From: Gordonia westfalica | GTDB lineage: Bacteria; Actinomycetota; Actinomycetes; Mycobacteriales; Mycobacteriaceae | Reading direction: 5' to 3' | DNA: 64,000 nucleotides | NCBI RefSeq assembly: GCF_900105725.1 | Contig: NZ_FNLM01000036.1 | Coordinates: 496,001 to 560,000, forward strand | Part shown: positions 3,575 to 64,000 of the stretch, piece by piece | Position numbering within the stretch: the first letter of the stretch is position 1 | How the letters are laid out: every line of letters begins with the position of its first letter | Position numbers and translations under genes: made by a program | The notes under the pieces: generated by a model | Seen by the model: only the letters and a program-made list of their open reading frames with translations | Databases searched by the model: none | Told to the model about the DNA's origin: nothing

Positions 3575-4612
3575 ATGGACGACACCGATGGCACAATCCT
3601 CCGCGCTCTGCAGGTCCATCCGCGAGCGTCGTTCCGGCGCCTCGGCGAGGCCGCCGGCATCTCGGAGCAGACCGCGGCCAGGCGCTACCAGGCACTGCGT
3701 CGCGCCGGGGTGATGCGAGTGGTGGGAATCGTGCGACCGGCGGTGCGCGGTGATTCCGAATGGGTGGCGCGCGTCCGCTGCCGTCCGGACCGCCTGGAGC
3801 CGCTGGCCGCGTCGCTGTCGCGTCGTCGGGACGTGGGCTTCGCGTACGTCGTCTCCGGCGGGACCGAGATCATCTGCGTGGTCCGGACCCCGATGGGGGC
3901 GGTCGGCGACGATGCCCTGCTGGCGGCACTCTCGTCCCGGGTGGGAGTCCTCGACGTCCGCGTCGACCTCCTGTTGCATGCCTTCAACGTCGGTTCGGCG
4001 TCGAAGTGGACCGGGTTCGGCGGTCATCTCTCCGAGTCCGCCCGGGATCTGGTGACCTCGAACGGATCCGCCCACGGCGCCGGGGACGACGATCCCGAGG
4101 CGGAGGGGGAGGACGCCGGCACCGGTGGTCCGGGGGAGAGTGCGCGTCTGACAGCCGAGGACGCGCCCCTCGTCGACGCGCTGACCCACGACGGTCGGCT
4201 CTCGCACCGGGAACTGGCGCGCATCTGCGGCTGGACCGTCGGACGCGTCCGGCGACGCCTGCGCACGCTCGAACGCAGCGGGGCACTGTACTACGACGTC
4301 GAGATCCTGCCCGAACGTCTCGGTTTCGACCTGAGTGCGACGCTGTGGCTCACCGTGGCGCCGTCGGCGATCGACGAGGTGGGCGCCGAGATCGCCGCAC
4401 ATGACGAGGTGGCGTTCGCGGCGGCGATCAGCGGTGACCACAACCTCATGGTCGCGGTGATCTGCCGCGACACCGACGACTTCTACCGCTATCTGCGCAC
4501 CGGAGTCGGTGCCGTGGACGGGGTTCTCGGCTATTCGGTCAGCATCCGTGTCCGGCGGCTGAAACAGAATGCGTCACTCGTGGTGCAGGGCCGTCTGGTT
4601 CAGCCGGTGTGA
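3575..4612 (+). CDS. Tandem Lrp/AsnC-family transcriptional regulator
   Basis: 345 residues, about twice a normal Lrp protein, with two units. The first HTH is near residues 4-50 (DGTILRALQVHPRASFRRLGEA...), followed by an effector-type half. A second AsnC-type HTH is near 185-240 (APLVDALTHDGRLSHRELARICG...), followed by a second RAM-like domain ending RVRRLKQNASLVVQGRLV. A linker rich in Asp/Glu/Gly (about 160-182) joins them. Two-unit Lrp proteins are known in actinobacteria. The start ATG 3575 places TACGAT nine bases upstream, compatible with a leaderless mRNA. Divergent from the MFS exporter, so it may control that gene; this is inferred from position only. Confidence 0.85.
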   Translation: MDDTDGTILRALQVHPRASFRRLGEAAGISEQTAARRYQALRRAGVMRVVGIVRPAVRGDSEWVARVRCRPDRLEPLAASLSRRRDVGFAYVVSGGTEIICVVRTPMGAVGDDALLAALSSRVGVLDVRVDLLLHAFNVGSASKWTGFGGHLSESARDLVTSNGSAHGAGDDDPEAEGEDAGTGGPGESARLTAEDAPLVDALTHDGRLSHRELARICGWTVGRVRRRLRTLERSGALYYDVEILPERLGFDLSATLWLTVAPSAIDEVGAEIAAHDEVAFAAAISGDHNLMVAVICRDTDDFYRYLRTGVGAVDGVLGYSVSIRVRRLKQNASLVVQGRLVQPV

Positions 4613-4691
4613 CCGCGATTCGCCCATCGGTGACACGGATCCACCGTTCGTCAAGCGCCGGTGTGAACGTCATGCGCGGTAACTTTCACGT

Positions 4692-6008
4692 GTGACCTCG
4701 CCGACGACGGACAATCAGGGCCTGGTGAGGTTGTGCGTGCTCGCCGTCCTCGCGGGATGTGTGACAGGTGTACTCGGCGGGGCCTTCCGTTGGTGCCTCG
4801 ACCATCTCAACCGGTGGCGGTTCGAGATGCTGGACTGGGCCGACGGTCTCGGTGCGCCGGGGTGGTTCATCCCGGTGGCGGTGACGGCTGCGGGAGCCGC
4901 CTTCGGCGCGCTCGTGTCGCATCTCGTACCGACCGCCGCGGGCAGCGGAATCCAGCACGTGGAGGCCGTCGAACGCGGTGAGGCGGAGCCGGCGCCGCTC
5001 CGGGTCGTCCCCGCCCGCTTCTTCGGTGGCCTCGCCGCGATCGGTTCCGGTCTGATCCTCGGCCGCGAGGGACCGACCGTGCACATGGGTGCGGCCGTCG
5101 GTTCCGAGACCGGGCGCCGTGCCAAGCTCGACGAGCACGACGTCCGCGTCATGCAGACCTCGCTCAGCGGGGCCGGTCTGGCGGTCGCCTTCACGGCGCC
5201 GGTGGGCGGCGCGCTCTTCGCGCTCGAGGAGGTGACGCACTCGTTCCGGATCCGGGTGGTGGTGCCGACCATCCTCGCCGTCGCCGCGGCGGTGGCCTGC
5301 GGACACGTGATCCTGGGTGACCGGCCCGACTTCCTCGTCGGAGTGGTGGCCGCGCCCTCGATCACCCTGTTGCCGGTGTTCGTGGTCTTCGGGCTCCTCA
5401 GCGGACTCGTCGGAATCGCCTACGGGCGAGCGGTTCTCGGGGCGATCAACGCGGTTCGTGGGATCACGCGTGTTCCGGCGATCGCCAAGGCGGCGATCAT
5501 CGGTGCGATCGTCGGCGGCCTGATGGCGATCGATGCCGACGCGGCCGGTGGGGGCGACAACCTCGCGCAACAGATCTTCGACGGTTCGGTCGTGCTCCCG
5601 GTGGTGGCCGCGCTGTTCCTGGTCCGGTTCGTCGCCGGTCCGTTGTCGTATGCCGCGGGAACCCCGGGCGGCCTGTTCGCGCCGATGCTCGCGCTCGGCG
5701 CACTGTGGGGGGTCCTGTTCGCCGCGGGCCTCGACGCCGTGCTCCCGCAATCGGATTCGACGCTGCGCGACGCCCTGGTGCTCGCCGGCATGGCCGCGCT
5801 GTTCGGTGCGGTGGTGCGGGCGCCGCTCACCGGCATGGTCGTGGTGATGGAGATGAGTGCGACGACCACGGTGGCGGTGCCCATGCTCGCCGCGACCGCG
5901 GCGGCCGTGCTCGTCGCACATCTCTCCGGAACGCCGCCCGTCTACGACTCACTCCGCGAGCAGATGCTCGCCAACGATGCCGGGCGCGAACGGGGCGCGG
6001 GAAACTAG
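4692..6008 (+). CDS. ClC-family chloride channel / H+-Cl- antiporter
   Basis: 438 residues with the three ClC filter motifs in order: GSGIQ (84-88), GREGP (124-128, with gating glutamate E126) and GTPGGLFAP (323-331). The pair E179-E180 in FALEEVTHSFR matches the internal proton glutamate of the Escherichia coli exchanger, so a 2Cl-/H+ antiporter is likelier than a pure channel. No C-terminal CBS domains. It works in the cytoplasmic membrane in anion homeostasis or acid resistance. The start is GTG 4692 with TAACTT six bases upstream, suggesting a leaderless transcript. Its stop codon overlaps the stop of the convergent ABC ATPase by 4 bp, leaving no room for a separate terminator. Confidence 0.92.
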   Translation: MTSPTTDNQGLVRLCVLAVLAGCVTGVLGGAFRWCLDHLNRWRFEMLDWADGLGAPGWFIPVAVTAAGAAFGALVSHLVPTAAGSGIQHVEAVERGEAEPAPLRVVPARFFGGLAAIGSGLILGREGPTVHMGAAVGSETGRRAKLDEHDVRVMQTSLSGAGLAVAFTAPVGGALFALEEVTHSFRIRVVVPTILAVAAAVACGHVILGDRPDFLVGVVAAPSITLLPVFVVFGLLSGLVGIAYGRAVLGAINAVRGITRVPAIAKAAIIGAIVGGLMAIDADAAGGGDNLAQQIFDGSVVLPVVAALFLVRFVAGPLSYAAGTPGGLFAPMLALGALWGVLFAAGLDAVLPQSDSTLRDALVLAGMAALFGAVVRAPLTGMVVVMEMSATTTVAVPMLAATAAAVLVAHLSGTPPVYDSLREQMLANDAGRERGAGN

Positions 6009-6835
6009 AAGGCCCGCGTGTGCGCGCCGAGCGGCACGATGAGCGGCCCGCCCGCGATCGGGTCCGTCATCACATGCGCGCGCAGGCCGAAGGCGTCGTC
6101 GAGCATCTCGGCGTCGATGACCTCGGACGGGGTGCCGACGGTGACGATCGCGCCGTTCTTCATCACGACCAGCGAATCGCTGTAGCGGGCCGCGAGATTC
6201 AGGTCGTGCAACACCATGACCACGGTCTTGCCGTGCTCGTCGCGGAGGCGTCGGACGAGGTCGAGGACGTCGATCGAATGCGCGAGGTCGAGGTAGGTGG
6301 TCGGCTCGTCGAGCAGGATCAGGTCGGTGCCCTGCGCGAGCGTGAGCGCGATCCAGACCCGTTGCCGTTGACCGCCGGAGAGTGCGTCGAGAGTGCGGTC
6401 GGCGAGTTCGAGGGTGTCGGTCATCTCCATCGCCTCGGCCACCGCGGCCTCGTCGGCGGCGGTTGCCTGCTGGTACCACCGCTGATGCGGATGCCGGCCC
6501 CGGCCGACGAGGTCGGCGACGGTCAGACCCTCGGGTGCGACCGGATTCTGGGGCAGGATCGCCAGGGTCCGGGCCACCTGCTTGGGCCGGACATGCGAGA
6601 TGTCGTCGCCGTCGAGGTAGACCGTGCCTGCCTTGGGCGGCAGCAGTCGTGCGAGGCATCGCAGCAGCGTCGACTTGCCGCAGCCGTTGGAGCCGATGAT
6701 CGTCGTGACCTGGCCGTCGGGGATGTCGATGTCCAGGCCGTCGATGACCACGCGCTGGTCGTAGCCGACGGTCAGCCCGGTGCCGCGCAGCCGCGACGTC
6801 GACTGCAGCTTGTGATCGGTGGGGGAGATGGTCAT
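6005..6835 (-). CDS. Iron-siderophore ABC importer, ATP-binding protein (FecE/FepC type)
   Basis: 276 residues. Walker A GSNGCGKST near 48-56, Q-loop in ILPQNPVAPEG, signature LSGGQRQRVWIA, Walker B LILLDEPTTYLDLAH and H-loop VLHDLNLAARYSD. The combination LDEPTTYLD plus HDLN is characteristic of FecE/FepC/BtuD ATPases of ferric-siderophore and cobalamin importers. The start ATG 6833-6835 overlaps the stop of the upstream permease by 4 bp, so the three importer genes are translationally coupled in the order permease, permease, ATPase. The matching binding protein is probably the lipoprotein at 11411-12436. Confidence 0.93.
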   Translation of the reverse strand: MTISPTDHKLQSTSRLRGTGLTVGYDQRVVIDGLDIDIPDGQVTTIIGSNGCGKSTLLRCLARLLPPKAGTVYLDGDDISHVRPKQVARTLAILPQNPVAPEGLTVADLVGRGRHPHQRWYQQATAADEAAVAEAMEMTDTLELADRTLDALSGGQRQRVWIALTLAQGTDLILLDEPTTYLDLAHSIDVLDLVRRLRDEHGKTVVMVLHDLNLAARYSDSLVVMKNGAIVTVGTPSEVIDAEMLDDAFGLRAHVMTDPIAGGPLIVPLGAHTRAF

Positions 6836-7971
6836 ACGGTCGCCTTCCGGGACATCGTGATCATCAGGTAGATGAGGAACGGTCCGCCGATCGCGGCGGT
6901 GACGATGCCGACGGGCAGCCCGCCGGGTAGCACCGTGCGGCACAACAGGTCTCCGCCGAGCACGAGGGACGCACCGATCAGGCCGGACAGCAGTGGGGTC
7001 GGTACCGCCGTCCGGGCCAGCCGCAGCGCGATCTGCGGTGCGAGCAGGGCGACGAACGCGATCGGTCCGGCGGCGGACACGCACAGCGCGCTGACCAGGA
7101 CCGCCGTCAGCAGCAGCGTGGTGGACACCGCGCCGGTCCGGACGCCGAGTCCGCGTGCGAGATCCGGGCCGAGGCTGAGCATGCCGATCTGCCGGGAGAA
7201 CACGACGATCATGACGACGCCGGCCACGACCCCGCCGACCACCGGCCAGACATTGGACCAGCCGACATTGGCGACCGAGCCCACCAACCACACCTGGGCA
7301 CGCCCGACGTCGCGGATGTCGGCACGGGTGAGCAGGAAGTTGGTGAGCGCCTGCAGCATCCACGTCATGCCGACGCCGATCAGGACGAGGCGGAACGGAT
7401 TGATGCCGCTGTTGGCCTTGCGGCCCGGCCAGGCCAGCACGTACATCAGCGCGGCGGTCAGCAGCGCACCGATCATCGCCGACGCCGGGACGCCGAGGTC
7501 GCCGAACCAGCTGCCCCAGCTCGTGTTCGAGAAGGCGAGGGCCGCGACCGCCGCCGCGCTTGCACCCGCGGTGATTCCGAGGATGTCGGGGGTGGCGAGG
7601 GGGTTCTGTGAGATCAGCTGGGTGATGGACCCCGACATGCCGAGTCCGATGCCCACCAGCAGGCCGACGAGGGCCCGGGGGAGCGCGACGTCGAAGACGA
7701 CGACGTTCTCGATGCGGGTGCCGCCGCCGAGCAGGATGCGTGCGACGTCGACCGGGGTGAGCGGGAAGTCGCTGACGCCGACGCTCGTCAGGAACAGCAC
7801 GACGGCGAGTGCCGCGGAGACGAGCGCGACGATCAGCATGCGCGGACGCACGACGACCGAGACCGGCTCGATCGCGAGGCGGTAGCCGCCGGGATGCGGC
7901 GCGATGCCCCGCGTACGGGTCGCGGGCCCACCTGAAGCCGGCTCGGGCGTCTTCACGTCGGACGTGCTCAT
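6832..7971 (-). CDS. Iron-siderophore ABC importer permease (FecD/FepG type)
   Basis: 379 residues with a hydrophilic N-terminal tail of about 45 residues and roughly nine to ten membrane helices of the FecCD (type II importer) fold. Family signatures include LPRALVGLLVGIGLGMSG, NPLATPDILGI, and the coupling region GLGVR followed by AAGPIAFVALLAPQIALRL. This permease pairs with the one upstream to form the heterodimeric channel. The ATG at 7969-7971 overlaps the upstream stop, giving MSTSDVKTPEPASGG; longer in-frame extensions upstream are out of family and cover the other permease gene. Confidence 0.93.
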   Translation of the reverse strand: MSTSDVKTPEPASGGPATRTRGIAPHPGGYRLAIEPVSVVVRPRMLIVALVSAALAVVLFLTSVGVSDFPLTPVDVARILLGGGTRIENVVVFDVALPRALVGLLVGIGLGMSGSITQLISQNPLATPDILGITAGASAAAVAALAFSNTSWGSWFGDLGVPASAMIGALLTAALMYVLAWPGRKANSGINPFRLVLIGVGMTWMLQALTNFLLTRADIRDVGRAQVWLVGSVANVGWSNVWPVVGGVVAGVVMIVVFSRQIGMLSLGPDLARGLGVRTGAVSTTLLLTAVLVSALCVSAAGPIAFVALLAPQIALRLARTAVPTPLLSGLIGASLVLGGDLLCRTVLPGGLPVGIVTAAIGGPFLIYLMITMSRKATV

Positions 7972-9011
7972 ACGGATGCCAATCTCTGCCGACGGACCAT
8001 GAAGATCAGGAACGGTGCGCCGACGAGCGCCAGCATCACGCCAACCTGGACCTCGCCGGGGCGCGCGACGACGCGGCCGAGGATGTCGCAGCCGACGAGG
8101 AGTATCCCGCCGAACAGCGCCGAATACGGGATGATCCAGCGATAGTCGGAGCCGACGATCCCACGCGCGATGTGCGGCACCACGAGCCCGAGGAAGACGA
8201 TCGGACCGCAGGCCGCGGTGGCCGCGCCGATCAGCAGGGTGATCGTCAGGATGCCGAGCGCGCGGATGAGCACCACCCGGGAGCCGAGCGCCTTGGTCAT
8301 GTCGTCGCCGAGGCTCAACACGTTGAGGAAGAAACCGCTCGCCAGCGCGAAGACGAGTCCGACTCCGATGAACGGCAGGCTCGCCCAGAACACGTCGATC
8401 CCGCGGCCGGCGGTCGACCCGACGCTCCAGAACCGCCACTGGTCGAGCGAGTTGGTGTCGACCAGCACGATCGACGACGTGATCGCGGTGAGCATCGCCG
8501 TGAGACCGGTGCCGGCGAGCACGAGGGTGAGTGGACTCGAGCCGCTCAGGGCGGACAGACCGAAGACGACGGTCGCGGCGATGATCGCGCCGAGCAGCCC
8601 GAAGAACATGAACGCGAGGGGGCTGGTGATGCCGAGCACGTAGATCCCGGCGACCACCGCGCATGCGGCGCCGGCATTGACGCCGAGCATGCCGGGATCG
8701 GCGATGGGGTTGCGTGTGTGCCCCTGCGTGATGGCACCGGCCGCGCCCACGGCCAGACCGGCGAACAGCCCGAGCAGGGTTCGCGGGACGCGGAGGTCCC
8801 AGACGATGCCGTCGACGTCGGTGTCCTTGGGGATCACCGGCATCCGCAGATCGAGGAGGGCCGCCCAGATCTCCGAGACCCCCGTGGCGAAACTCGTCCA
8901 GACCTCGTCGAGCGGAACCGGACGCGTGCCGAAGAGCACCGAGGCGATGACCAGCCCCACCAGGGCCGCGACCAGCACGGGAATGCCGAGGACACGGAGG
9001 GAGCGGCGCAC
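7968..9011 (-). CDS. Iron-siderophore ABC importer permease (FecC/FepD type)
   Basis: 347 residues, FecCD family. RVPRTLLGLFAGLAVGAAGA and NPIADPGMLGVNAGA are the conserved helix 2/3 signatures; ALGSRV followed by ACGPIVFLGLVVPHIAR marks the ATPase-coupling helix and following membrane segment. First gene of the three-gene importer operon, read leftwards. The start is GTG 9009-9011. An IdeR-like iron box abuts it at 9012-9030, so iron-dependent repression is likely. The gene is divergent from the small secreted protein at 9183. Confidence 0.93.
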   Translation of the reverse strand: MRRSLRVLGIPVLVAALVGLVIASVLFGTRPVPLDEVWTSFATGVSEIWAALLDLRMPVIPKDTDVDGIVWDLRVPRTLLGLFAGLAVGAAGAITQGHTRNPIADPGMLGVNAGAACAVVAGIYVLGITSPLAFMFFGLLGAIIAATVVFGLSALSGSSPLTLVLAGTGLTAMLTAITSSIVLVDTNSLDQWRFWSVGSTAGRGIDVFWASLPFIGVGLVFALASGFFLNVLSLGDDMTKALGSRVVLIRALGILTITLLIGAATAACGPIVFLGLVVPHIARGIVGSDYRWIIPYSALFGGILLVGCDILGRVVARPGEVQVGVMLALVGAPFLIFMVRRQRLASV

Positions 9012-57429: not shown

Positions 57430-58518
57430 TCAGCCCAGCGACCCGAGCGTCTTCAGCCGTTCGTGCGCCTGATGCATGATCGACTGGACGAGCTCGTCGC
57501 AGCTCGGCAGGTCGTCGATCATCCCGACGACCTGGCCCGACGCGAGAACGCCGGCCCGGGTGTCACCCTCGACGAGGCCGGCCTTCAGCAGCATCGGGGT
57601 GTTGCCGGCCATGATGACCTGCTGCCAGGTGCGCTCGCCCGACTTCTTCATCGTGCGACCGTCTTTGAGCATGGTCGTCCAGCGCATGCCGGTCATCTGC
57701 TTGAACTCGTTGGCATTTCGGGCCGCGGCGAACAGCGCTTTCACCGGACTGCCGCTCTCGAGTGCCTCGACGAGCGGGGTGCGCAGCACGCGGTGGGGCA
57801 TGCCGTCGACCTTGACGGAGACGACGGTGTCGTTGAGGCCACGACCCAGGTACTCCTGTTTCACCGAGTCGGGGACCGCGCTGTCGGAGGTCAGCAGGAA
57901 GCGGGTTCCCATGGCGACACCCTGGGCGCCGTACGCCAGTGCCGCCGCCAGGCCGCGACCGTCGAAGAAGCCGCCGGCTGCGACCACCGGCATGTCGATG
58001 TTCCTGGCCGCCAGGGCATCCAGCACCGACGGGAGCAGCAGGGTCGTGGCGACCGGGCCGGTGTGACCGCCGCCCTCGCCGCCCTGCACGATCACCGCGT
58101 CGGCGCCCCAGGAGGCGACCTTGACGGCGTGCTTGGCCGCACCGATCGACGGGATCACCACGATGCCGTGGTCTTTGAGCTTCGCGATCAGTTCAGGCTT
58201 CGGTGCGAGCGCGAACGACGCGACCTTGACCCCTTCGCGGATCAGCAGATCGATCCGCTCCGGAGCGTCGGTGGCGTCGGCGCGCATGTTCACGCCGAAC
58301 GGCTTGTCGGTCAACGACTTCGTCTTGGCGATGGCGGTCTCGAGTTCGGCGAACGTCATCGTCGCCGACGCCAGGATGCCGAGACCGCCGGCGTTCGACG
58401 TCGCCGAGGTCAGCGACGGCCCGGACACCCAGCCCATACCCGTCTGCACGATCGGGTACTCGACCCCGACCAGTTCGGTGAACGACGTGGACAGGCCGGC
58501 CGCCCTGGCCGGACTCAT
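57430..58518 (-). CDS. ipdC: IpdC, NMO/enoyl-reductase-like flavoenzyme of HIP degradation
   Basis: 362 residues. FMN-dependent TIM barrel of the 2-nitropropane dioxygenase/NMO family: YPIVQTGMGWVSGPSLTSAT, GLGILASATMT, FGVNMRADAT, VIVQGGEGGGHTGPV (phosphate loop) and GGFFDGRGLAAALAYGAQGVAMGTRFL split around GARG-like glycine. In M. tuberculosis IpdC (Rv3553) is a flavin oxidoreductase in the ring C/D pathway. ATG 58516-58518 overlaps the ipdB stop. Last gene of echA20-ipdA-ipdB-ipdC, read leftwards. Confidence 0.9.
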   Translation of the reverse strand: MSPARAAGLSTSFTELVGVEYPIVQTGMGWVSGPSLTSATSNAGGLGILASATMTFAELETAIAKTKSLTDKPFGVNMRADATDAPERIDLLIREGVKVASFALAPKPELIAKLKDHGIVVIPSIGAAKHAVKVASWGADAVIVQGGEGGGHTGPVATTLLLPSVLDALAARNIDMPVVAAGGFFDGRGLAAALAYGAQGVAMGTRFLLTSDSAVPDSVKQEYLGRGLNDTVVSVKVDGMPHRVLRTPLVEALESGSPVKALFAAARNANEFKQMTGMRWTTMLKDGRTMKKSGERTWQQVIMAGNTPMLLKAGLVEGDTRAGVLASGQVVGMIDDLPSCDELVQSIMHQAHERLKTLGSLG

Positions 58519-59306
58519 CGGACTTCCTTGTTGCGAACGCCCTTGGGATCGAGGACGTCTCGGATGAGGCCGAGTTCCTCGGCGGTGGGCTGCCGTGTCT
58601 CCGGGGCGTCGGCGAGGCCCTCGATCTCGAAGCCGGTGTTCTCCGCGACCTCGTCGGCGGTGACCCCGGGATGCAGCGACAGCGCCCGCATCGTGTGCCC
58701 CTCGCCGCCGAAGTCGAAGACGCCCAGGTTGGTGACGACGCGATGGATGTTCAGGTCGTCGTACGCCGGGTTGTCGGGGTCGACCTTGTCGTATCCGATG
58801 CCGGACACGATGTCGACGGTCTTCCCGAAGACGCGTGCCGTGTGACGCGGCACCCAGTAGCTCGTCGGGTGGTTGATGGTGTTGCCGGGTGCGCCGCGGA
58901 CGCCGAACATCTGGCGCGTCGGGTGCTGCAGCGGTCCGAACGCCGACAGGTTCTGGTTTCCGTGACGATCGATCTGGTTGGCGCCCATGACCACATGGCG
59001 ACGGCCCGACGCCACGACGTCGAACACCTTGCGGAACGGCATCCAGCCCTCGATGGGACCGGTCTTGCCGATCGGCGGGGTGTCGGCGAGGATCAGTGCC
59101 TCGCCGTCGGTGATCAGCAGGTCGGGCTCGGTGGTGAGGCGTGCCAGGCGGGCTCCCAGCAGGGGAGTGGGCGCCATCGGCGACGCCATGATCTCGCCGG
59201 CACCGGCGAAGATGCCGGCGCACGAGATGACGCAGTACTCGGCGCGCGTGGCTTCGACAGGCTCAGCCGGCGGGATATTCGTTGCCTGGGTCTCTGTGGT
59301 GCTCAC
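58515..59306 (-). CDS. ipdB: IpdB, beta subunit of COCHEA-CoA hydrolase
   Basis: 263 residues, CoA-transferase family I beta-like fold (EYCVISCAGIFAGAGEIMAS, DLLITDGEALILAD, VVMGANQIDRHGNQN, GAPGNTINHPTSYWV). IpdAB resembles a CoA transferase but hydrolyses the last ring of COCHEA-CoA. The conserved active-site glutamate of true CoA transferases is not obvious at the expected place, in line with the hydrolase role. GTG 59304-59306 overlaps the ipdA stop by 4 bp. Confidence 0.92.
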   Translation of the reverse strand: MSTTETQATNIPPAEPVEATRAEYCVISCAGIFAGAGEIMASPMAPTPLLGARLARLTTEPDLLITDGEALILADTPPIGKTGPIEGWMPFRKVFDVVASGRRHVVMGANQIDRHGNQNLSAFGPLQHPTRQMFGVRGAPGNTINHPTSYWVPRHTARVFGKTVDIVSGIGYDKVDPDNPAYDDLNIHRVVTNLGVFDFGGEGHTMRALSLHPGVTADEVAENTGFEIEGLADAPETRQPTAEELGLIRDVLDPKGVRNKEVR

Positions 59307-60196
59307 TGTGCGTTCTCCTCCTGCTCGGCCTGCCATGCGGTCACCTCTCGCTGGTAGGTCGCCTCGTCGACCTGAAGGAATCGACGCGAGAACGCTTCCC
59401 AGGTGTCGGGTTCCTTGGCGCTGGCGACATAGAACTGCTGGAACTTCTCGTCGCGTCCGTAGTCACCCGCAAAGGTGAAGTGGGCACCGTTGGGGGTGTG
59501 CACCACCCGGTCGACGTTCATCCTGTTGAGCAGGAGTCGCTGATGCGGAACGGTTTTCACCAGTACCTCGGTCGAGACGAGCTGGTCTGTCTCCAGGTAG
59601 CGACGTTCGGCGGCCGCGCAGTAGAGGTCGTCGAAGTACGGGTCGACGCCGGTGTAGGCGGCGTTGCCGTGGGCGTCGGCCAGATCCAGGTGGACGAAGG
59701 CCGCGTCGAGCTTCAGGGCCGGCATCGCGACCAGTGTCTGGGTCCGTCCGTCGGCGTCCGGGTACGGCGATTCGACGGTCTTCAGTTCGCCCTCCCAGAA
59801 GTTCAGGACGTCGGAACCGAGTCCGGCGCGGATCGGGAGGAACGGCAGGCGGGCTGCCGCGGCCTCGAGCCCGCACTTCACCATTCCCTCGTCCATCTCG
59901 CGCACCTCGATCTCGCCGTTGGTGCGCGCCTTGGCGAACCACGGGTCGTAGAAGGGTGCGGAGTCGAGGGAGACGAAGCCGTAGTAGGCGCGGCGCACCT
60001 TGCCTGCGGCACAGAGCAATCCGAGGTCAGGGCCGCCATAGGTGACGACGGTGAGGTCCTTGACGTCCGAACGTGCGATCGCGCGCACGAGCGCCATCGG
60101 CTTGCGGCGCGAACCCCAGCCGCCGATGCCGATGGTCATCCCGTCGCGGAGTTCCGCGACGACGTCGTCGAGTGTGCTTGTCTTGTCGGTCGGCAT
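59303..60196 (-). CDS. ipdA: IpdA, alpha subunit of COCHEA-CoA hydrolase
   Basis: 297 residues, close to the 292 of Rv3551. CoA-transferase alpha-like: LRDGMTIGIGGWGSRRKPMALVRA (glycine-rich CoA loop), VVTYGGPDLGLLCAAGKV, LEAAAARLPFLPIRAGLGSDV and DLADAHGNAAYTG. With IpdB it opens ring C. ATG 60194-60196 one base after the echA20 stop. Confidence 0.93.
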   Translation of the reverse strand: MPTDKTSTLDDVVAELRDGMTIGIGGWGSRRKPMALVRAIARSDVKDLTVVTYGGPDLGLLCAAGKVRRAYYGFVSLDSAPFYDPWFAKARTNGEIEVREMDEGMVKCGLEAAAARLPFLPIRAGLGSDVLNFWEGELKTVESPYPDADGRTQTLVAMPALKLDAAFVHLDLADAHGNAAYTGVDPYFDDLYCAAAERRYLETDQLVSTEVLVKTVPHQRLLLNRMNVDRVVHTPNGAHFTFAGDYGRDEKFQQFYVASAKEPDTWEAFSRRFLQVDEATYQREVTAWQAEQEENAQ

Positions 60197-60197
60197 C

Positions 60198-60983
60198 TCA
60201 GGCGTGTCCTCCGTTGTGCGAAGCGTTCGAGGCGAGCGGCTTGCCGGTCGAGACGAAGGCATCACGATGCTCATCGGCGACGCCGGCCAGGTTCAGTTCG
60301 AAGGTGAAGCCCTGTTCGAGGCGATAGCTGGCCTTAACATCGACCGGGTCGATGTGGTTGATGGCTTCCTTGGCCGCACGGATCACCCGGGTGTCCTTGG
60401 CGGCGATGGCCTCGGCGACCTCGAGCGCAGCGTCGAGCAGCTCTTCCCGCGGTACGACGCGGTAGACCGAGCCGAAGTGCTCCAGCTGCTGGGCGGTCAC
60501 GTTCTTCGCGGTGAAATACAGGGTCCGCATCATGTGCTGCGGCACCAGACGCGCGAGATGCGTTGCGGCGCCCAGCGCTCCGCGATCCACCTCGGGCAGG
60601 CCGAAGACCGCGTCGTCGGAGGCGACGATGACGTCGGCGTTGCCGACCAGCCCGATCCCGCCGCCGACGCAGAAGCCGTTGACCGCGACGATGACCGGGA
60701 CCGCGCAGTCGTAGACCGCGCTGAATGCGGCCGCACAACCCCGGTTGGCGCCGATCAGGGCGTCGAAGCCCTCGGTGGCCTGCATCTCCTTGATGTCGAC
60801 GCCGGCATTGAAGCCGCGTCCTTCAGCGCGCAACACCACGACGTGCGTGGCCGGATCGTCGCCCGCCGCGGTGACGGCGTCGGCGAGTTCGAACCATGCG
60901 GCCGATGGCAGCGCGTTGACCGGCGGGTAGTCGACCGTGATGGTCACGATGCCGGATTCGGTACGTGTCGTGGTGATCGGCAC
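60198..60983 (-). CDS. echA20: EchA20, crotonase-family ring-D hydrolase
   Basis: 261 residues. Crotonase oxyanion regions GRGFNAGVDIKEMQ (about 62-75) and NGFCVGGGIGLVGNADVIVAS (about 105-125, split here by its length), then GLPEVDRGALGAATHLARL. In M. tuberculosis EchA20 (Rv3550) hydrolyses ring D of HIEC-CoA. GTG 60981-60983 (VPITTTRTESG) has GAGGAG five bases upstream. First gene of the leftward ipd operon, divergent from the SDR gene across a KstR2 box. Confidence 0.92.
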   Translation of the reverse strand: MPITTTRTESGIVTITVDYPPVNALPSAAWFELADAVTAAGDDPATHVVVLRAEGRGFNAGVDIKEMQATEGFDALIGANRGCAAAFSAVYDCAVPVIVAVNGFCVGGGIGLVGNADVIVASDDAVFGLPEVDRGALGAATHLARLVPQHMMRTLYFTAKNVTAQQLEHFGSVYRVVPREELLDAALEVAEAIAAKDTRVIRAAKEAINHIDPVDVKASYRLEQGFTFELNLAGVADEHRDAFVSTGKPLASNASHNGGHA

Positions 60984-61041
60984 GCGTGCTCCTCTCGTGG
61001 CTGCGTTGGGCAACCGCGGGGGCTGCACAAGCATTGAACCA

Positions 61042-61055
61042 AGCAAGTGCTTGGT
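61042..61055. promoter_or_regulatory. KstR2 operator between echA20 and the SDR operon
   Basis: AGCAAGTGCTTGGT matches AnCAAGnnCTTGnT at every fixed position, inside the longer palindrome ACCAAGCAAGTGCTTGGT (61038-61055). It lies 8 bp before the -10 TAGGGT of the rightward gene. Confidence 0.9.
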
Positions 61056-61075
61056 TGTTTGGTAGGGTAGCACCC

Positions 61076-61864
61076 ATGCAGACGCAGTCACAGGTCGAGC
61101 TGGGCCTGGTCGGGAAGGTTGTCCTGGTCACCGGAGGTGCGCGCGGTGTCGGAGCCGGTATCACCCGGGTGTTGTCGTCCCTGGGGGCCAGGCCGGTGAT
61201 CTGCGGCCGCAGCGCCGACAACCTCGTCGACGACCTCCGCGAGATCGACTTCTTCTCCTGCGACGTCCGCGACGCCGCTGCTGTGGAGGCGATGATCGAC
61301 GGCATCGTCGGTCGCGCCGGACGCATCGACGGGGTGGTCAACAACGCCGGCGGGTCGCCCTTCGCGCTCGCCGCCGATACATCCGTCCGGTTCGCGAGCA
61401 AGATCGTCGACCTGAATCTCCTGGCCCCGCTCGCCGTGGCCAAGGCCGCCAACGCGGTCATGCAGAGCCAGCCGGACGGCGGCGCGATCGTCAACGTCTC
61501 GAGCGTCAGCGGGCACCGGCCGTCGCCCGGGACGTCTGCGTACGGCGCCGCGAAGGCCGGCCTCGACAATCTGATGACCTCACTGGCCGTCGAATGGGCC
61601 CCGAAGGTGCGGGTCAACTCGGTCGTCGCCGGTCCCGTGGAGACCGAGCAATCGCACCTCCACTACGGCGACGACGCCGGGGTCGCAGCCGTCGGCGCCA
61701 CCATCCCGCTGGGCCGGATGGCGACGCCCACCGACGTGGGCAACGCCGTCGCCTTCCTGCTGTCACCGCTGGCCGGTTACATCAGCGGTTCGACGCTCAC
61801 CGTGCACGGCGGTGGCGAGAAGCCCGCTTTTCTCGACGCCGCAACCGCAGGCAACGCCGTCTGA
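61076..61864 (+). CDS. SDR-family oxidoreductase (Rv3549c-like)
   Basis: 262 residues. VVLVTGGARGVGAGITRVL (cofactor loop), NNAGG, the catalytic Ser in VNVSSVSGHRPSPG and YGAAK (Tyr-xxx-Lys, about 162-166), and PLGRMATPTDVGNAVAFLLSP. Ortholog position of Rv3549c in the KstR2 regulon; its step in HIP degradation is not fixed. ATG 61076 has TAGGGT seven bases upstream, leaderless. Confidence 0.9.
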   Translation: MQTQSQVELGLVGKVVLVTGGARGVGAGITRVLSSLGARPVICGRSADNLVDDLREIDFFSCDVRDAAAVEAMIDGIVGRAGRIDGVVNNAGGSPFALAADTSVRFASKIVDLNLLAPLAVAKAANAVMQSQPDGGAIVNVSSVSGHRPSPGTSAYGAAKAGLDNLMTSLAVEWAPKVRVNSVVAGPVETEQSHLHYGDDAGVAAVGATIPLGRMATPTDVGNAVAFLLSPLAGYISGSTLTVHGGGEKPAFLDAATAGNAV

Positions 61865-61908
61865 CCCAGCTGATCCCCGAGTCTTTTGCAGTTCAGAAAG
61901 GAAACACC

Positions 61909-62804
61909 TTGAGTAGCAAGTTGAATGAGGGCCGCGTCGCCATCGTGACCGGTGCCGGACAGGGTATCGGACGCGCCCACGCCCTCGCCTTCGCCGCCGA
62001 CGGCGCCAAGGTCGTGGTCAACGACTACGCGGAGAACCTGGCTGCCGGGGTCGTCGACGAGATCCGCGCGTCCGGGGGGAAGCCGTCGCATCCGTGGGTG
62101 ACGTGGCGGACTGGAAGAGCGGGGAGGCCATGGTGGCCACGGCGATCGACACGTTCGGTCAACTCGACATCCTCGTCAACAACGCCGGTTTCGTCCGCGA
62201 CCGGATGCTGGTGTCGCTCTCCGAGGACGAGTGGGACGCCGTCATCCGCGTGCACCTGAAGGGGCACTTCGTCGGACTGCGCCATGCCGCGGCGTACTGG
62301 CGTGCCGAGGCAAAGGCGGGCCGCACGCGCCAGGCGCGGATCATCAACACGAGTTCCGGTGCCGGACTGTACGGTTCGGTGGGCCAGGGCAACTACGTCG
62401 CCGCGAAGGCGGGGATCTCCGCGCTCACCATCCAGGCGGCCGCCGAGCTGGGCGGCTACGGCATCACGGCCAATGCCATCGCGCCCGCGGCCCGCACCCA
62501 GATGACGATGGGCGCCGGCGACGAGATGGCCGCGCAGATGGCCGCACCTGCAGACGGCTCCTTCGACGCGATGGACCCGGCGAACATCTCGCCGCTCGTC
62601 GTGTGGCTCGGCTCGCCCGAGGCCGCGTCGGTGACCGGTCGGGTCTTCGAGGTCGAGGGCGGCAAGATCTCGGTGACCGACGGCTGGCAGCGAAGCGTCG
62701 AGCAGGACAAGGGATCTCGCTGGGAGGTCGCGGAGCTCGGCCCGGTGGTCGAGGAGATCCTGGCGAAGGCGCCCGTCCCGATGCCGGTCTACGGCGCGCG
62801 GTGA
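61909..62804 (+). pseudogene. SDR-family oxidoreductase (Rv3548c-like), apparent one-base deletion
   Basis: TTG 61909 behind AAAGGA starts LSSKLNEGRVAIVTGAGQGI then GRAHALAFAADGAKVVVND. The frame fails after EIRASGG, at a run of six G (62074-62079). The next frame continues VGDVADWKSGEAMVATAID, LVNNAGFVRDRM, the Ser of INTSSGAGLYGSVGQGNY and VAAK, to the end at 62804. One more G gives SGGEAVASVGDVADW and a normal SDR of about 298 residues. Everything else is intact, so a sequencing error is at least as likely as a pseudogene. The family corresponds to Rv3548c. The stop overlaps the next GTG. Confidence 0.85.
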
Positions 62805-63178
62805 CCTCACCGGACAGAGACCCGCAGCGGGTCGCGGCGGCCCGGGCATATGTCGATGCCCTGGTCAGCCACGACCCGTCGGCGGTGTCGTTGCATCCGG
62901 ATTGCACCCGCGTCGAATTCGGTGTGCGGACCGGTCGCAACGGACCGCACATCGCCCGCAGCCTCGCGAAGGGTCCGCAGTTCCGCCTGATCCACCGGGT
63001 CTCGGATTTCACCGCGACGGTCGACGGGCACAGCGTCACCACGCGATATGTGGTGCACGTCCGGCCGCGGGTCCTCCGGCTCGGTGCTCCGGTGTCGGAG
63101 ACCTTCGTCGTCGACGAGGAGAACCGGATTCGCGCGATCGTAGCGCGGTTCGGGCTGCCGCGCCGTCAGCCCGCCTGA
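62801..63178 (+). CDS. NTF2/SnoaL-like small protein at the end of the SDR operon
   Basis: 125 residues. An N-terminal helix (PQRVAAARAYVDALVSHDPS) followed by strands with LHPDCTRVEFGVRTGRNG, FRLIHRVSDFTATVDGHSVTTRYVV and SETFVVDEENRIRAIVARF gives the cone-shaped NTF2/SnoaL pattern. Such domains act as hydratases, isomerases or accessory subunits. The GTG overlaps the preceding stop (GTGA), so it is probably KstR2-controlled and may act on a HIP intermediate; this is inferred. Family assignment is by pattern only. Confidence 0.75.
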   Translation: MTSPDRDPQRVAAARAYVDALVSHDPSAVSLHPDCTRVEFGVRTGRNGPHIARSLAKGPQFRLIHRVSDFTATVDGHSVTTRYVVHVRPRVLRLGAPVSETFVVDEENRIRAIVARFGLPRRQPA

Positions 63179-63187
63179 CCCGCGAGT

Positions 63188-63844
63188 TCAGGCGCCGGGG
63201 GCGCGCACGACCATCGGCACCCCGGGGAAGTAGGCGGCCATCTCCGAGCGCGACTTGCGCAGTGCGGCGGTGCCGTAGCCGGACTTGCGGAACTGCGGGT
63301 GAATCCAGATGCGGAGGTCCACCTCGCCGTCCTTGAGCTCGCCGAACACGAAGCCGACCTTGGAGTCCCCTTCAACGGCGACGAGCCACACGGCCTCCTC
63401 GGCGTCGACGCGGTCGGTGGCGGCGCTGATCTCGGCGGCGACGTCACCGGCCGGTGCGCCGGAACCGTCGCCGGCGGTTCCGAGTTCATCGGTGCGGGCG
63501 GCGAAGAGTTCGGTATCGGCTTCGGGGTCGAACGGACGCAGGTCGAGGGTGTCCCCGCTGCTGGCCGGACGCTCCGCGAGTGTGAAGGTCAGGGCCTTGT
63601 TCAGGTCGTCGAGCTCGGCCTGGTTCTTGCGGCGCTCGTCCTTGGTCAGCTGGTCGAGCTTCATGTCCAGGATGGCCTTGGCGCCCAGCTGCGACTTGCC
63701 GAGCAACTCCACGATCGCGGTCACCGCTTCGTCGTGGTCCTCCGCGTCGACGATGGCGTCGAGGACCTCGTGTCGACGCTCCAGGGCGGTCAGCAGGGCA
63801 TCGGCGATGTCGCGGCGAGTGGTGGCCAGGTCCAGATCAGTCAT
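63188..63844 (-). CDS. GNAT acetyltransferase fused to a GyrA-like helical segment
   Basis: 218 residues. Residues about 12-80 (ALLTALERRHEVLDAIVDAE, then AIVELLGKSQLGAKAILDMKLDQLTKDER) closely follow the helical region of DNA gyrase subunit A around LSE-Q-AQAILDMRLQRLT. After a linker, residues about 100-218 form a GNAT fold: EAVWLVAVEGDSKVGFVFGE, DLRIWIHPQFRKSGYGTAAL, with the acetyl-CoA loop in RKSGYG. Acetylation target unknown. ATG 63842-63844 has TACGAT six bases upstream, a leaderless pattern. Convergent with the NTF2-like gene. Confidence 0.8.
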   Translation of the reverse strand: MTDLDLATTRRDIADALLTALERRHEVLDAIVDAEDHDEAVTAIVELLGKSQLGAKAILDMKLDQLTKDERRKNQAELDDLNKALTFTLAERPASSGDTLDLRPFDPEADTELFAARTDELGTAGDGSGAPAGDVAAEISAATDRVDAEEAVWLVAVEGDSKVGFVFGELKDGEVDLRIWIHPQFRKSGYGTAALRKSRSEMAAYFPGVPMVVRAPGA

Positions 63845-64000
63845 GCTTCGATCGTAGACACGATGGTCGTTCCGCGCGCCGACATTGCGAGTGCGCTGCG
63901 GGCGTCATCGGCGGAATAGTGGAACAGGTTCCAATGTCGTTAACCGCCTTTTTCGTGGACCTTCTTTCCTAAATCTGTAACACGTCCTAGTCTTGTGGAA

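Follow-up and report, generated by a model that had tools for sequence, protein, structure and literature searches.

What is a piece of DNA gyrase doing at the front of an acetyltransferase-like protein? One small gene raises this question in a 64,000-nucleotide stretch of the Gordonia westfalica genome (contig NZ_FNLM01000036.1, positions 496,001 to 560,000; hereafter the window). A sequence-only reading by a model had singled out an open reading frame at positions 63188-63844 as a gyrase A-like segment fused to a GNAT acetyltransferase; the frame is real and lies on the minus strand, which that reading had left unnamed. We found that residues 3-90 of its product are homologous to the C-gate of GyrA, the primary dimer interface of gyrase, and that an apparently shortened GNAT domain follows. 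The protein is most likely an acyl-coenzyme A (CoA)-dependent acyltransferase, or a sensor, linked in Gordonia and its sister lineages to steroid catabolism, and its borrowed module is probably unrelated to gyrase function. Both parts are of known kinds; what seems new is a C-gate domesticated as a module and fused to a shortened GNAT, and a literature search, some of its listings confined to the best 8-15 entries and many subscription papers outside it, showed no description of the C-gate module or the GNAT fusion. The gene and its two domains are:

63188-63844, minus strand: fusion gene, GyrA C-gate-like module plus GNAT, from the open reading frame and its homologues; 218 amino acids, ATG start
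63575-63838, minus strand: GyrA C-gate-like module, residues 3-90, from Pfam, NCBIfam, the AlphaFold2 model and a PDB profile search
63191-63547, minus strand: GNAT domain, residues 100-218, the model stopping after strand 5, from Pfam, the AlphaFold2 model and tail lengths

Descent of the N-terminal module from GyrA was detected at the level of both sequence and predicted fold. Residues 3-86 matched positions 330-411 of PF00521 with the whole protein as query (E 8.1e-7; 28.7 bits, just below the Pfam cut-off of 31 bits), and residues 1-91 alone reached 31.3 bits (E 1.3e-7). The NCBIfam GyrA model was matched over positions 362-444 both by residues 1-91 (E 2.8e-9) and by the whole protein (E 3e-8), and 11 of 13 diverse members matched PF00521 at E ≤ 0.01. 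The AlphaFold2 model builds the module from five helices (residues 3-22, 24-33, 37-48, 52-61 and 68-90) and superposes on M. tuberculosis GyrA 381-466 at 2.0 Å over 86 residues; the best 50 Foldseek matches of the whole model were GNAT folds only, and the gyrase fold appeared in a separate structural alignment list. With GyrA and the GyrA14 fragment the protein shares sequence homology and the five-helix C-gate fold over residues 3-94, but it differs from GyrA in matching the C-gate segment of PF00521 only and in carrying a GNAT domain. The full breakage-reunion domain, with its catalytic Arg-Tyr, DNA-gate and tower, is absent, the match covering only that one segment of the 432 PF00521 positions in a protein of 218 amino acids. 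The gyrase resemblance that the sequence-only reading had placed at residues 12-80 is thus true homology, though the module is longer than it had supposed.

That reading had also proposed a profile comparison with GyrA, which was run with Pfam, NCBIfam and a profile, A5, against the phylum and the PDB, and the relation held throughout. A5 was made from 16 modules of non-gyrase proteins, without any GyrA row. At E ≤ 0.001 its PDB matches comprised 49 distinct sequences, GyrA or ParC in 47 cases (best E 8.5e-16) and designed TIM barrels in the other two (E 7e-4 and 9e-4). The profile matched 375 of the 396 genomes of the phylum at E ≤ 1e-5, and the phylum matches listed, fusion and solo modules aside, were open frames mostly of about 800-1280 amino acids, which is GyrA-sized. 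Because A5 recovers both these frames and GyrA in the PDB, a chance coiled-coil resemblance is ruled out. The profile is not wholly independent of GyrA, since L056, which contributed a row to it, is placed beside GyrA by the tree described below; GyrA was also found without A5, by the query alone in Pfam, NCBIfam and direct alignment. The G. westfalica genome holds a single high-scoring copy of the fusion, the second-best match being its own GyrA (residues 7-82, 36% identity, E 0.016). Of 4990 database candidates scored, 2866 proteins were homologues at E ≤ 0.001, and the best 120 of these 2866 were 217-237 amino acids long with 99-100% query coverage.

Two short segments of the module stand at sites where GyrA is conserved:

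63644-63661, minus strand: residues 62-67, K-L-D-Q-L-T, where GyrA has its basic patch R425/R427/R428, from alignment
63767-63778, minus strand: family signature R23-R24-H25-E26, at S. pneumoniae GyrA His386-Ile387-Asp388-Glu389, from alignment

A study of S. pneumoniae GyrA describes R425/R427/R428 as a basic patch, close to the dimer interface and important for supercoiling (PMC8368997). In the G. westfalica protein these residues align with K62/D64/Q65, so that, unlike GyrA, the fusion lacks this T-segment basic patch and has RRHE in place of the S. pneumoniae H-I-D-E. Counted over unique rows, positions 427 and 428 were both basic in 23/23 true GyrA rows, in 44 of the 47 solo rows (which include one fusion fragment, P0159) and in 2/207 fusion rows; fragment rows, counted separately, kept both in 3 of 73 cases, and by eye none of the 9 fusion rows among 16 intermediate ("mid") rows did. 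The true GyrA rows, all actinobacterial, number 23 because the 24 sorted as GyrA include a barstar-type protein (L086). Asp388 was Asp in every one of the 23 and His in all 207 fusion rows, and the Ile/Leu of position 387 was Arg in 207/207 fusion rows and 43/47 solo rows. The Gln that the sequence-only reading had called conserved is not the Gln of GyrA: Gly54, and not Gln52, aligns with Gln417 (S. pneumoniae numbering). All 23 GyrA rows have Gln at this position, and 170/207 fusion rows have Gly. The ILDM...LxxLT pattern of that reading is present in the query, but an alignment of 23 family sequences gives the consensus A-V-L-x-M-S-F-D-Q-L-T. The fusions have kept the fold and shed features of DNA passage, which argues for self-association and not mimicry. 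It is likely that the module acts as a self-association domain, and here we infer the same use, dimerisation, that the sequence-only reading had suggested. Hundreds of proteins currently annotated as "GNAT family N-acetyltransferase" or, where the module stands alone, "DNA gyrase subunit A" would gain a suggested function from this.

The second half is a GNAT domain, as had been proposed, with an acetyl-CoA-binding motif:

63272-63289, minus strand: acetyl-CoA-binding motif R186-K-S-G-Y-G191, from sequence and alignment

Three Pfam GNAT models (Acetyltransf_1, 3 and 7) matched after the module at E 1e-5 to 4e-4: PF13302 with 26.6 bits (cut-off 25.4), PF00583 with 21.2 (20.7) and PF13508 with 26.2, just under its cut-off of 27. 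All 13 diverse members matched PF13508 and PF13302 at E ≤ 0.01. The acetyl-CoA motif of the GNAT superfamily is Q/RxxGxG/A, and R186, G189 and G191 were invariant in the same 13 members, in which the acidic residues of strands 3-4 were also highly conserved. The domain resembles other GNATs in its RxxGxG motif and in the order of its elements up to strand 5, but it apparently stops there and bears an N-terminal C-gate module. The Pfam models were covered only up to positions 105/138, 53/84 and 84/116, and the tail after GxG was 26-32 residues long in 206/207 fusion rows and 46 in the remaining one; by tail length and predicted structure, helix 4 and strands 6-7 have apparently been lost across the family. 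Among characterized actinobacterial GNAT proteins, Rv2170 is a mycobacterial lysine acetyltransferase of isocitrate dehydrogenase described as having 206 amino acids, and the text of that paper makes no mention of gyrase (PMC5428333); on this description the fusion is probably not Rv2170. PatA-type Rv0998, also a mycobacterial lysine acetyltransferase, has a cAMP-binding domain; both are actinobacterial GNATs as the fusion is, and both are set apart from it by description.

In Gordonia, the setting of the gene is metabolic:

57430-62804, no strand assigned: steroid ring-degradation cluster (IpdC, IpdB, IpdA, EchA20 and two short-chain dehydrogenase/reductase, SDR, genes), from order and resemblance to Rv3548c-Rv3553
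61042-61055, no strand assigned: KstR2 operator-like box AGCAAGTGCTTGGT between the first SDR gene and echA20, from the motif and PMC3068626
63920-63933, no strand assigned: KstR operator-like box TGGAACAGGTTCCA between the fusion gene and a divergent fadD8-like gene, from the motif and PMC1995591

We surveyed 100 loci (45% identity, E ≤ 1e-15), including at least four same-contig pairs (L097/L174, L098/L171, L101/L198 and L108/L199), with genes called by a crude open-reading-frame heuristic and cluster genes named by resemblance and recall. A divergent fadD adjoins the fusion gene in 29/29 Gordonia loci; the G. westfalica copy scores 1044 bits against the NCBIfam FadD8 equivalog model (cut-off 875), and its likely start falls just outside the window. 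On the opposite side lies the second SDR gene in 25 of the 29, the contig ending first in the other four, followed in most loci that reach so far by the first SDR gene, EchA20, IpdA, IpdB and IpdC; beyond fadD, FadA5, Ddn or P450 genes were present in 22/29. Steroid-cluster genes also flank the fusion in eight further distinct loci (L171 = L098, L189, L198 = L101, L210, L091, L092, L093 and L102). In the rest of the 100 loci, all mycobacterial ones included, no steroid-cluster genes adjoined the fusion, L099 excepted with a SnoaL-labelled gene only, and neighbours differed among the mycobacterial loci inspected. A universal fadD partnership was ruled out, the Gordonia-type fadD occurring in none of the mycobacterial loci.

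The KstR operator is given as TnnAACnnGTTnnA in PMC1995591. Such a box was present upstream of the fusion gene in 27/29 Gordonia loci and in none of five other loci scanned alongside (three Williamsia, Jongsikchunia and Aldersonia). These first 34 loci held 29 boxes in 331 kb, 27 being the upstream ones, and shuffled regions held one in 0.15% of cases. A further 46 loci had no KstR box upstream of the gene, some of the mycobacterial ones having less than 350 bp there. The KstR2-like box of the window matches in position the one reported between Rv3549c and Rv3550 in mycobacteria (PMC3068626). Together these observations point to an unstudied acyltransferase-like gene beside the Gordonia steroid cluster, with a KstR box in front.

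We favour, with a probability of roughly 0.5, a dimeric, CoA-binding GNAT with a GyrA-derived dimer module, recruited to steroid catabolism by Gordonia and its sister lineages. The N-terminal 90 residues would be a domesticated GyrA C-gate, comprising the globule and coil ends of the primary dimer interface, and most likely would make the fusion protein a homodimer. Two GNAT domains, each ending after strand 5, would then be held side by side, and the partner chain may provide, or stand in for, the missing C-terminal part of each. In Gordonia and its sister lineages the enzyme would belong to the steroid-catabolism programme, and elsewhere it may serve something more general. Its expected target would be a lysine of a steroid-pathway protein, possibly the product of the fadD8-like gene.

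A possible, though doubtful, alternative is an acyl-CoA sensor, in which the shortened GNAT would bind CoA thioesters but not act as a catalyst, and a C-gate-like dimer would open or close on binding to regulate a steroid-pathway partner. The stop 26-32 residues past GxG, the partial coverage of the Pfam models, and the steroid-cluster linkage with its KstR box would all suit such a sensor, but the high conservation of the CoA motif and of the acidic residues of strands 3-4 is what is expected of an enzyme, and no partner was identified. Short active GNATs exist, which also weighs against a sensor. It is unlikely that the protein is instead a small-molecule acetyltransferase, acting on an amine, polyamine or drug, with a dimerisation add-on and no relation to steroid regulation. 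The solved folds closest to the GNAT half include SpeG and AAC(6') enzymes; such matches, at 9-23% identity among those listed, reflect the generic GNAT fold, and SpeG, aligned over its residues 7-127 of 167, has a C-terminal part that is missing in the fusion. Such an enzyme would also leave the steroid-cluster linkage in Gordonia unexplained.

A gyrase-directed protein, whose module pairs with the GyrA C-gate and whose GNAT acts on gyrase, or on an inhibitor of gyrase, by acetylation, seems to us distinctly improbable. It would draw on the true C-gate homology and the similar predicted fold, and one mycobacterial-type locus offers it a suitable setting: in L103 (G620, genus g23; 3949-8922) the fusion lies, by eye, between RNase HII-like and ComM/DprA-like genes, DNA-processing neighbours unlike those in Gordonia, which weighs against our view that the module has no gyrase link. 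The positions unvaried in GyrA are replaced in the fusions, however, both at Asp388 and at the 427/428 basic pair; no GyrA frame was found in the fusion loci and the Gordonia neighbours are metabolic; and a protein that trapped GyrA throughout a genus, genome by genome, ought to harm gyrase. Long GyrA frames appeared only in loci fetched for GyrA, in a search of six-frame open reading frames of the loci with the module profile in which gyrB was not sought. The docking on GyrA or GyrB, or competition with gyrase inhibitors, that the sequence-only reading had raised finds no support in these changes of C-gate residues or in a context that shows no gyrase link. A decoy for a CcdB-like toxin is disfavoured by the main CcdB contact, which we take to lie beyond the end of the module. 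Very improbable, too, is that domesticated C-gate proteins pair with the GyrA C-gate, so that the fusion would deliver a CoA-dependent acyltransferase to gyrase's exit gate and couple supercoiling to acyl-CoA (steroid or lipid) status in these actinobacteria.

All 37 Gordonia genomes matched the protein at E ≤ 1e-6, and none of 24 genomes from other families of the order did at that threshold. Across the family, 228/401 genomes and 20/31 genera matched, with the fusion proper in 17 of the 31 sampled genera; of the remaining three, g151 and g159 matched through other module proteins only and g136 through the GNAT half with a degenerate module. In the g136 locus (L082, G353) the GNAT half is retained and the module is shortened and diverged. 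Among the named hosts of the best 80 of 366 relatives, themselves drawn from 566 stretches, are Gordonia, Williamsia, Jongsikchunia, Aldersonia, Mycobacteroides, Mycolicibacterium and Mycolicibacillus.

The four architectures in which the module occurred show that an essential topoisomerase's C-gate can persist outside the enzyme as a protein module. The first is the module plus GNAT, and the second the module alone, of about 90 amino acids, in Arthrobacter, Pseudarthrobacter, Aeromicrobium and others, several of which (Arthrobacter and relatives; L046/L115, proteins P0154-P0244) are annotated "DNA gyrase subunit A". Stand-alone modules have the module and its predicted fold in common with the fusion, but they lack the GNAT and mostly retain the basic patch, so their role may differ from that of the fusions. 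In the third architecture, of about 280-300 amino acids (L058, L083, L087-L090), the module is C-terminal to a domain for which no Pfam family reached its cut-off (PepSY came closest, E 0.17); a database search in which the 7995 candidates with the most words in common were scored gave eight such proteins, and one locus (L090, G358) has two such genes, both ending in the module. The fourth joins a barstar domain (PF01337, E 1.4e-11) to a C-terminal module (L086, G391). In a tree of 59 rows and 83 columns, the 23 GyrA rows form one side of a branch (97/89) with modules outside, the fusions group with P0159 at only 64/0, and the branching order among modules is not resolved. Some solo modules (L056 and the Arthrobacter group) fall on the GyrA side, and the tree therefore does not establish a single origin of the modules.

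One further gene lies next to the fusion:

62801-63178, plus strand: small gene converging on the fusion gene, SnoaL-like by eye only

This gene had no Pfam or NCBIfam match. A structured-RNA reading of the region was dropped, as an Rfam scan of 62700-64000 gave no match at E ≤ 0.1. The second SDR gene (Rv3548c-like; 61594-62804, plus strand) seems split over two frames near 62.09 kb, with its N-terminal part in one open reading frame and the rest in another, where the family profile begins at position 71; this is either a real break or an assembly error. Outside the window, a transposase-like gene (L005, 12476-13594), presumably IS110-like, sits in the G. westfalica steroid cluster between a TetR-like gene and ddn.
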